A stretch of DNA of 64,000 nucleotides from Nitrososphaeraceae archaeon (lineage in GTDB: Archaea > Thermoproteota > Nitrososphaeria > Nitrososphaerales > Nitrososphaeraceae): contig WHTU01000001.1 of assembly GCA_009377575.1 (NCBI GenBank), forward strand, positions 62,001 to 126,000, in the 5' to 3' direction. The stretch's first letter is position 1. The number at the start of each line of letters is the position of its first letter. Positions 32,704 to 34,592 of the stretch are shown here, piece by piece. The notes under the pieces were generated by a model, which was not told the origin of the DNA, searched no databases, and was given only the letters and a program-made list of their open reading frames with translations. Position numbers and translations under genes: made by a program.

Positions 32704-34305
32704 ATGAATGACAGCTTATCAGGATCAGACCTTAGTTGTATCGTTCAGTTGCAAGAGGCGGGTTTCAGAATTTCCAAGCTGCACAGAAACCTGCCCCCTC
32801 CATCATTGATTGAAGCTGCCATTCGTAGGCGCGAAGGGGAATTATCTACAACAGGGGCACTTTCCGTTAGAACCGGCAAGTTTACGGGCAGATCACCCGA
32901 TGACCGTTATATAGTGGACGATGTCTTAACACATGATTCAGTTGATTGGGGAAAAATAAATCATCCGCTGTCTCCTGAGAAATTTGATCGAATTCTCAAT
33001 AGGATGAAAAGATCCCTCGAGGGAAAGGATGTATTTGTCTTCGATGGATACATCGGAGCAGAGAAAGAGAGCAGGCTCTCAATTAGGACAATAACAGACA
33101 ACGCGTGGCAGAATCTCTTTGCGATGCAGATATTCATCCGTCCAACTCTGCCAGAACTTCTAAGTCATAATCCATCGTTCACTGTACTATCTATAATTGA
33201 TTTCCAAGCCCGTCCAGAAGAAGACGGAACAAAAAGTGAGACCTTCATTATCCTCAATCTTACTAAACGTCTTGTGTTAATTGGCTCTACTTCCTATGCG
33301 GGGGAAATAAAAAAATCAATGTTTTCTGTAATGAATTATCTCCTTCCTTTCAAAGGTATTTTTCCTATGCATTGCTCTGCGAACATAGGTAGAGATGGAA
33401 TGACCGCTCTTTTATTTGGCTTGTCAGGTACTGGAAAAACGACACTCTCGGCTGATCCTGAGAGACGGTTAATTGGGGATGATGAACACGGATGGTCAAA
33501 CAATGGCATCTTCAACTTTGAAGGTGGTTGTTACGCAAAATGTATAAACCTCCAAAGATCCATGGAACCACAGATCTGGAATGCAATAAAATTTGGTTCG
33601 GTTATGGAGAACGTCATCCTCGACCAAAATCGTGAACCCGATTTTGGTGACGAGTCGCTAACAGAAAACACCCGGGTTGCTTACCCGATTGAATTCATAC
33701 CAAACACTGTTTTACCAAGTGTAGGGAATCATCCGGATGTTATAATTTTCCTAGCAGCTGATGCATTCGGGGTACTCCCTCCGATTGGAAGATTGTCAAG
33801 AGAACAAGCTATGTATCACTTCATGTCCGGTTACACTAGCAAATTGGCTGGCACAGAGAGGGGCATCACTGAACCACAGGAGACATTTTCTCATTGTTTT
33901 GGTGCACCTTTCATGATGCTGAAACCAGGAGTATACGCCGATATGCTTGGAAAAAGAATTGGCGAACATGAGTCAAGGGTTTATTTGATAAACACGGGAT
34001 GGGTGGGGGGACCATATGGAGTTGGACGCAGGATGAATCTTCAACAGACTAGGTCCATGGTGAAAGCAGCAGTCAATGGCGATTTAGAGAAAGTTTCCTA
34101 TACAAGGCACGAAATTTTCAATGTAGAGATTCCAATCTCATGTCCAGGTGTTCCAGACCATATCCTTGATCCGATTAACACATGGTCTGATAAACAGAAA
34201 TATATGGAATCGGCTAAAAGACTCGCTTCTTTGTTTGTAAAAAACTTCGAGAAATTTGGAAGTATGCCGATGGAAATCATAAATGCAGGTCCTAGAGTAC
34301 AGTAA
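32704..34305 (+). CDS. pckA: Phosphoenolpyruvate carboxykinase (ATP)
   Basis: The enzyme converts oxaloacetate + ATP to phosphoenolpyruvate + CO2 + ADP, the first committed step of gluconeogenesis. The kinase loop GLSGTGKTTLSA is at residues 239-250 and the metal site at LIGDDEHGW. GRSPDDRYIV (62-71) and FPMHCSANIG (220-229) are in the substrate region. This is the ATP-dependent family, not the GTP form. At 533 aa it is complete. A short palindrome lies in its promoter. Confidence 0.95.
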   Translation: MNDSLSGSDLSCIVQLQEAGFRISKLHRNLPPPSLIEAAIRRREGELSTTGALSVRTGKFTGRSPDDRYIVDDVLTHDSVDWGKINHPLSPEKFDRILNRMKRSLEGKDVFVFDGYIGAEKESRLSIRTITDNAWQNLFAMQIFIRPTLPELLSHNPSFTVLSIIDFQARPEEDGTKSETFIILNLTKRLVLIGSTSYAGEIKKSMFSVMNYLLPFKGIFPMHCSANIGRDGMTALLFGLSGTGKTTLSADPERRLIGDDEHGWSNNGIFNFEGGCYAKCINLQRSMEPQIWNAIKFGSVMENVILDQNREPDFGDESLTENTRVAYPIEFIPNTVLPSVGNHPDVIIFLAADAFGVLPPIGRLSREQAMYHFMSGYTSKLAGTERGITEPQETFSHCFGAPFMMLKPGVYADMLGKRIGEHESRVYLINTGWVGGPYGVGRRMNLQQTRSMVKAAVNGDLEKVSYTRHEIFNVEIPISCPGVPDHILDPINTWSDKQKYMESAKRLASLFVKNFEKFGSMPMEIINAGPRVQ

Positions 34306-34313
34306 ATTTAAAG

Positions 34314-34443
34314 TAGCCCGGAGCAGATTCGAACTGCTGTCCTCAGGTTTCTTTTCATTTAGATCCAGAGCCTGAAATCCCTAGCCCTCAAGTAAGTTTG
34401 GCCACTAGATTCGGCGCACGTTTCTGACGTGCTCGACCGGGCT
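34314..34443 (-). tRNA. tRNA-Gln (CTG) with three apparent introns
   Basis: On the minus strand an acceptor stem AGCCCGG (34443-34437) pairs with CCGGGCT (34321-34315), with discriminator A at 34314 and no encoded CCA. The T arm AGCAG-TTCGAAT-CTGCT is at 34338-34322. The anticodon stem TCAGG/CCTGA (34375-34371 with 34347-34343) frames the loop CTCTGG+A with anticodon CTG. Seventeen bases lie between G37 and the 3' stem, so a 16-base intron sits at the usual 37/38 position. Two further insertions are implied. About 23 bases containing a GCACGT/ACGTGC hairpin lie between the acceptor and D stem. About 16 lie within the D loop (D stem AATC/GATT). Removing all three leaves about 73 nt. A1-U72 and A73 suit archaeal tRNA-Gln. 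Exact splice points are uncertain. Confidence 0.65.
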
Positions 34444-34472: not shown

Positions 34473-34482
34473 CTAATATTTG
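34473..34482 (-). promoter_or_regulatory. TATA box of tRNA-Gln
   Basis: Minus-strand CAAATATTAG is centred about 26 nt before a start near 34451, eight bases ahead of the tRNA 5' end. Confidence 0.4.
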
Positions 34483-34592
34483 ACTGTAACGCTCGAATTC
34501 ATTGAATCTGTGGTTGTAATTGGGTGTTCATGATTACTGCGTAAAACAAATCTACAAGGCTTGCTATGCTAGCTGGCTCTGAATTTACTCTT

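Follow-up and report, generated by a model that had tools for sequence, protein, structure and literature searches.

Archaeal introns are cut at bulge-helix-bulge (BHB) motifs and the exons are joined by the ligase RtcB. Members of the Thermoproteales carry up to three introns in one tRNA, exemplified by pre-tRNA-Glu(UUC) of P. calidifontis and pre-tRNA-Pro(UGG) of P. islandicum (PMC4390854). Three papers give three introns per tRNA as the maximum (PMC4390854; PMC4033280; PMC8450103). The tRNAscan-SE 2.0 paper also reports 107 non-canonical tRNA introns from Thaumarchaeota, from which a clade-specific BHB model was built (PMC8450103). According to a review, Thaumarchaeota possess alpha2beta2 splicing endonucleases (PMC4090602).

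We analysed a window of 64,000 nt from contig WHTU01000001.1 of a Nitrososphaeraceae archaeon, in which a tRNA-Gln gene with three introns, two of them at unusual sites, had been predicted from the sequence. The original prediction noted that multiple introns at non-canonical sites are known in some Crenarchaeota and certain Thaumarchaeota, in agreement with the literature on the Thermoproteales (PMC4390854) and on the Thaumarchaeota (PMC8450103). The three-intron arrangement is real, conserved in the family and of an already known kind. Four introns in one tRNA, apparent in relatives, may be the new part.

Structure of the tRNA-Gln(CUG) gene

The precursor extends from 34443 to 34314 on the minus strand and comprises 130 nt, of which 57 nt are intronic and distributed over three introns (Table 1). 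Its ends pair as a perfect 7-bp acceptor stem (AGCCCGG/CCGGGCU), adjoined by a perfect T arm, and removal of the introns results in a standard cloverleaf tRNA. On paper the spliced product is AGCCCGGUCGUCUAGUGGCCAAGGAUUUCAGGCUCUGGACCUGAGGACAGCAGUUCGAAUCUGCUCCGGGCUA, 73 nt long with anticodon CUG. The original prediction had the coordinates, the 57 extra bases and the mature length right, as well as the 16-nt intron at 37/38. The other two introns were also correctly recognised, but with inexact sites and lengths: the one of about 23 nt placed between acceptor and D stem has 24 nt and lies inside the D stem, at 10/11, and the one of about 16 nt placed in the D loop has 17 nt and lies at 21/22. 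The perfect 6-bp hairpin that had been pointed out forms the inner helix of the BHB at 10/11. A split or permuted tRNA was ruled out, the exons all being contiguous and in normal order.

Table 1. Features of the tRNA-Gln(CUG) locus; positions are those of the window
Feature	Position	Strand	Description	Basis
Exon 1	34434..34443	-	tRNA positions 1-10, AGCCCGGUCG	BHB enumeration; junction exact in natural intron-less relatives
Intron 1	34410..34433	-	24 nt, site 10/11, within D stem; BHB CGGU/GCCG, bulges CG|A and AA|U, inner helix 6 bp GCACGU/ACGUGC
Exon 2	34398..34409	-	tRNA positions 11-21, UCUAGUGGCCAA	BHB enumeration, family alignment
Intron 2	34381..34397	-	17 nt, site 21/22, D-loop/D-stem junction; BHB GGCC/GGCU, bulges AA|A and AG|G
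Exon 3	34365..34380	-	tRNA positions 22-37, GGAUUUCAGGCUCUGG; anticodon CUG at 34368-34366
Intron 3	34349..34364	-	16 nt, canonical site 37/38; BHB CUCU/AAAG, conserved C34-A mismatch, bulges GG|A and AA|A
Exon 4	34314..34348	-	tRNA positions 38-73, T arm and 3' strand of acceptor
TATA-like element	34473..34483	-	TCAAATATTAG, starts 40 nt upstream of the tRNA
Neighbouring ORF	32704..34305	+	533 aa, presumably a PEP-carboxykinase-like protein (named by recognition); tail to tail with the tRNA, ends 8 bp away

Every possible BHB motif in the precursor, defined as a 4-bp helix between two 3-nt bulges at the exon-intron junctions, was enumerated with no prior on position. The two perfect motifs ranked at the top are those at 10/11 and 21/22 (4/4 central pairs each), and the motif at 37/38 (3/4) comes first among those with one mismatch. 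BHB motifs can be drawn at all three sites; had none been possible at the two unusual ones, this would have counted against the original prediction. A blind scanner that pairs the search for BHB candidates with a cloverleaf test recovered the same three introns, with no others, and a good tRNA-Gln. With three introns in one gene, two of them non-canonical, this is a multi-intron tRNA. Two other placements of intron 1 were rejected. No fitting BHB was found at 8/9 or 9/10, and relatives with an empty site join at 10/11; a hand-drawn BHB (GUCG/GCGC) would leave four surplus bases.

The locus was not called by ARAGORN, nor by the Rfam tRNA model at its gathering threshold, and a permissive search with the latter matched only the 3' part (25.1 bits, cut-off 29).

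Shuffling each intron in place gave a BHB at the exact site as good as the observed one in 0 of 200,000 shuffles for 10/11, 92 of 200,000 for 21/22 and 2,882 of 200,000 for 37/38. In a separate test of 3,000 shuffles none satisfied all three sites jointly; the single-site rates were 1.5%, 3.0% and 1.2%, with a product of about 5e-6.

Conservation in the family and order

We compared 50 precursors from the family, one from the window and 49 from other genomes. All 50 give a mature tRNA of 73 nt and their exons are near-identical. The 21/22 and 37/38 introns are present in every precursor and the 10/11 intron in 43. Their lengths range from 22 to 37 nt at 10/11, from 15 to 31 nt at 21/22 and from 14 to 26 nt at 37/38. 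The central helix is fully paired (4/4) in all 40 distinct 10/11 introns and all 31 distinct 21/22 introns. Furthermore, compensatory changes are frequent in the inner helices of the 10/11 introns, where a single position can show as many as six pair types. At 37/38, all 38 distinct introns have 3/4 central pairs, and the mismatch at C34 is C-A in 37 and C-U in one. Unlike the family, some outgroups can pair opposite C34 in this helix.

In the seven relatives without the 10/11 intron, AGCCCGGTCG is followed directly by TCTAGTGG, which is an exact empty site. These natural empty sites fix the 10/11 boundary to the base. All seven belong to one genus, including a record named Nitrososphaera, and other members of that genus retain the intron. 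The closest named relatives of the organism studied here are the Nitrososphaerales archaea TH5895, TH5896 and TH526, the nearest being 95% identical around the locus. Beyond the family, introns at 21/22 and 37/38 occur widely within the order, while genomes from other orders of the class showed either the 37/38 intron alone or no intron.

Copy number and the isoacceptor tRNA-Gln(UUG)

The tRNA-Gln(CUG) gene is present as a single copy in a genome that is 99% complete. A second intact copy, which by the original prediction would have spoken against it, was searched for in the genome and is absent; the other match is the isoacceptor tRNA-Gln(UUG). The latter gene (contig 111 of the assembly, 153018-153112), of which the Rfam tRNA model matches only a part, has a 22-nt intron at 10/11 with the same CGGU/GCCG central helix. 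The tRNA-Gln(UUG) counterparts throughout the family, and those in several further families, likewise have an intron with this helix at 10/11, and because of this distribution the 10/11 intron may be older in tRNA-Gln(UUG) than in tRNA-Gln(CUG).

The other tRNAs of the genome that the blind scanner could read have no intron or one, except for a leucine tRNA in which two introns were read with uncertainty. Single non-canonical introns were read by the scanner after base 15 in tRNA-Asp and tRNA-Arg(CCU) and after base 28 in tRNA-Asn(GUU).

Splicing endonuclease, ligase and the proposed splicing route

The genome encodes one PF01974 protein of 185 aa, the alpha subunit of the splicing endonuclease. 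Its best solved relatives are 3p1z_B, 3ajv_B, 2cv8_A and 2zyz_B, all of which we take to be alpha subunits. The alignment to 3p1z_B is ungapped through the N-terminal region with the Crenarchaea-specific loop, whose position we likewise presume, and through the catalytic context. The His/Lys context is conserved in the 185-aa protein, and the aligned histidine is precisely the point at which 3ajv_B departs from 3p1z_B. These comparisons support an alpha subunit closest to the alpha chains of crenarchaeal (alpha-beta)2 enzymes of the Aeropyrum and Sulfolobus type.

Most genomes of the order encode two PF01974 proteins, and the second kind, which lacks the catalytic histidine context, is likely the beta subunit. 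This candidate is present in four out of four other members of the genus, with 55-58% identity to a sequence from another genome (G109). In the present assembly of 380 contigs no beta subunit was found using PF01974 at E up to 10, TIGR00324 or comparison with the G109 sequence, which is most simply explained by a gap in the assembly. The broad-specificity endonuclease named in the original prediction finds support in a crenarchaeal-like alpha subunit in the genome and a candidate beta partner in the genus. An RtcB ligase is also encoded.

We are highly confident that the locus is a functional gene, and the only one for tRNA-Gln(CUG), of a Nitrososphaeraceae-type archaeon. Its transcript would carry three introns, each cut at its BHB by an (alpha-beta)2 endonuclease, and RtcB would join the exons to the standard 73-nt tRNA. 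We infer transcription, cleavage, ligation and their order from the sequences.

The BHB at 10/11 pairs bases 5-8 and thereby competes with acceptor pairs 5-7. For this reason excision of the 10/11 intron probably precedes closure of the acceptor stem, perhaps taking place during transcription; remodelling by the endonuclease would be another solution to this competition. For each of the 43 intron-bearing sequences, the minimum-energy fold of the full precursor has the complete acceptor stem in place of the 10/11 BHB, and forcing this BHB in the window precursor costs 4.8 kcal/mol. When the 5' segment is folded alone, the BHB forms in only 6 of 43, and simple energy models are not decisive here. 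The alternative UCG/CGA helix in the minimum-energy fold of the full precursor is disrupted wherever relatives or isoacceptors carry UGG or UAG at positions 8-10, which favours the BHB.

Alternative explanations

The disagreement with the minimum-energy fold is the one observation in favour of a reading where only the 37/38 and 21/22 introns are real and the 10/11 segment is either kept or removed in some other way. The exact empty sites in seven relatives, the BHB with compensatory changes in all 40 distinct introns and the intron with the same central helix at the same site in tRNA-Gln(UUG) all speak against it, and we regard it as very improbable. Even less credence is given to a decayed tRNA pseudogene that has acquired insertions while another tRNA does the decoding. 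Such a gene might well be missed by the standard finders, as this one is by ARAGORN and at the Rfam threshold. However, the genome holds no other tRNA-Gln(CUG), the exons are conserved throughout the family and the introns are constrained by base pairing. Furthermore, the upstream TATA-like element is conserved within the genus and recognisable in other genera.

An artefact of assembly or binning could be suspected in a genome of 380 contigs with 2.4% contamination. The same three introns are, however, found in independent assemblies from the genus (JAATVS010000042.1, JAATVP010000195.1 and JAATVR010000109.1) and in genomes of the family that consist of a single contig. Since independent assemblies agree, an artefact is refuted for practical purposes. 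A functional gene with three BHB introns remains the preferred reading.

Four apparent introns in a sister family

Two genomes from a sister family within the order, each representing a different genus, have a further insertion in tRNA-Gln(CUG), located at 25/26. The apparent introns at 10/11, 21/22, 25/26 and 37/38 measure 38, 19, 45 and 44 nt in CADDZS010000077.1 (259-fold coverage according to the record title) and 40, 17, 37 and 41 nt in DAIDAB010000033.1. The inserts differ in sequence and length at all four sites, yet on paper both genes give the identical 73-nt mature tRNA. The motif at 25/26 has 3/4 central pairs in both genomes, in the register that gives a proper tRNA. The best strict motif at this site in CADDZS010000077.1 (GGGA/UCCC) would leave two surplus bases and was rejected. 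In the same gene the 25/26 motif is formed in part with bases of the 21/22 intron and would lose one more pair if the latter were removed first, which suggests an order of splicing. From these comparisons it appears likely that tRNA-Gln(CUG) has reached four introns in this sister family, one above the maximum stated in the papers cited. A literature search for archaeal or thaumarchaeal tRNA genes with four introns returned no papers.

Three other genomes of the sister family carry tRNA-Gln(CUG) with no intron at all and with another acceptor sequence (AGCCCCG), in contrast to the apparent four-intron copies of their relatives; replacement or contamination may account for this. In isolate B6, a 94%-complete genome with an apparent four-intron tRNA, no PF01974 endonuclease was found, though it is present in other family members; this is probably an assembly gap.

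Comparison with known systems

Stable, family-wide multi-intron tRNAs are shown here in the Nitrososphaerales. A single tRNA provides a natural series from none to four introns, the fourth being apparent, with exact empty sites, and this series is useful for questions of intron gain and loss and of endonuclease tolerance. The locus also shows that an essential tRNA can escape common tRNA finders.

The 37/38 intron is of the canonical archaeal BHB type, from which the other two differ in position, one lying within the D stem and the other where D loop and D stem meet. The arrangement shares its BHB principle and its phylum with the thaumarchaeal introns of tRNAscan-SE 2.0, which the text of that paper catalogues collectively, naming no individual thaumarchaeal tRNA (PMC8450103). 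It resembles the Thermoproteales, where a tRNA can hold as many as three BHB introns at both canonical and non-canonical sites and the enzyme is of the (alpha-beta)2 type, as it probably is here. Unlike in the Thermoproteales, the host belongs to the Nitrososphaerales, the introns are concentrated in tRNA-Gln rather than spread genome-wide, and their sites are stable across the family.
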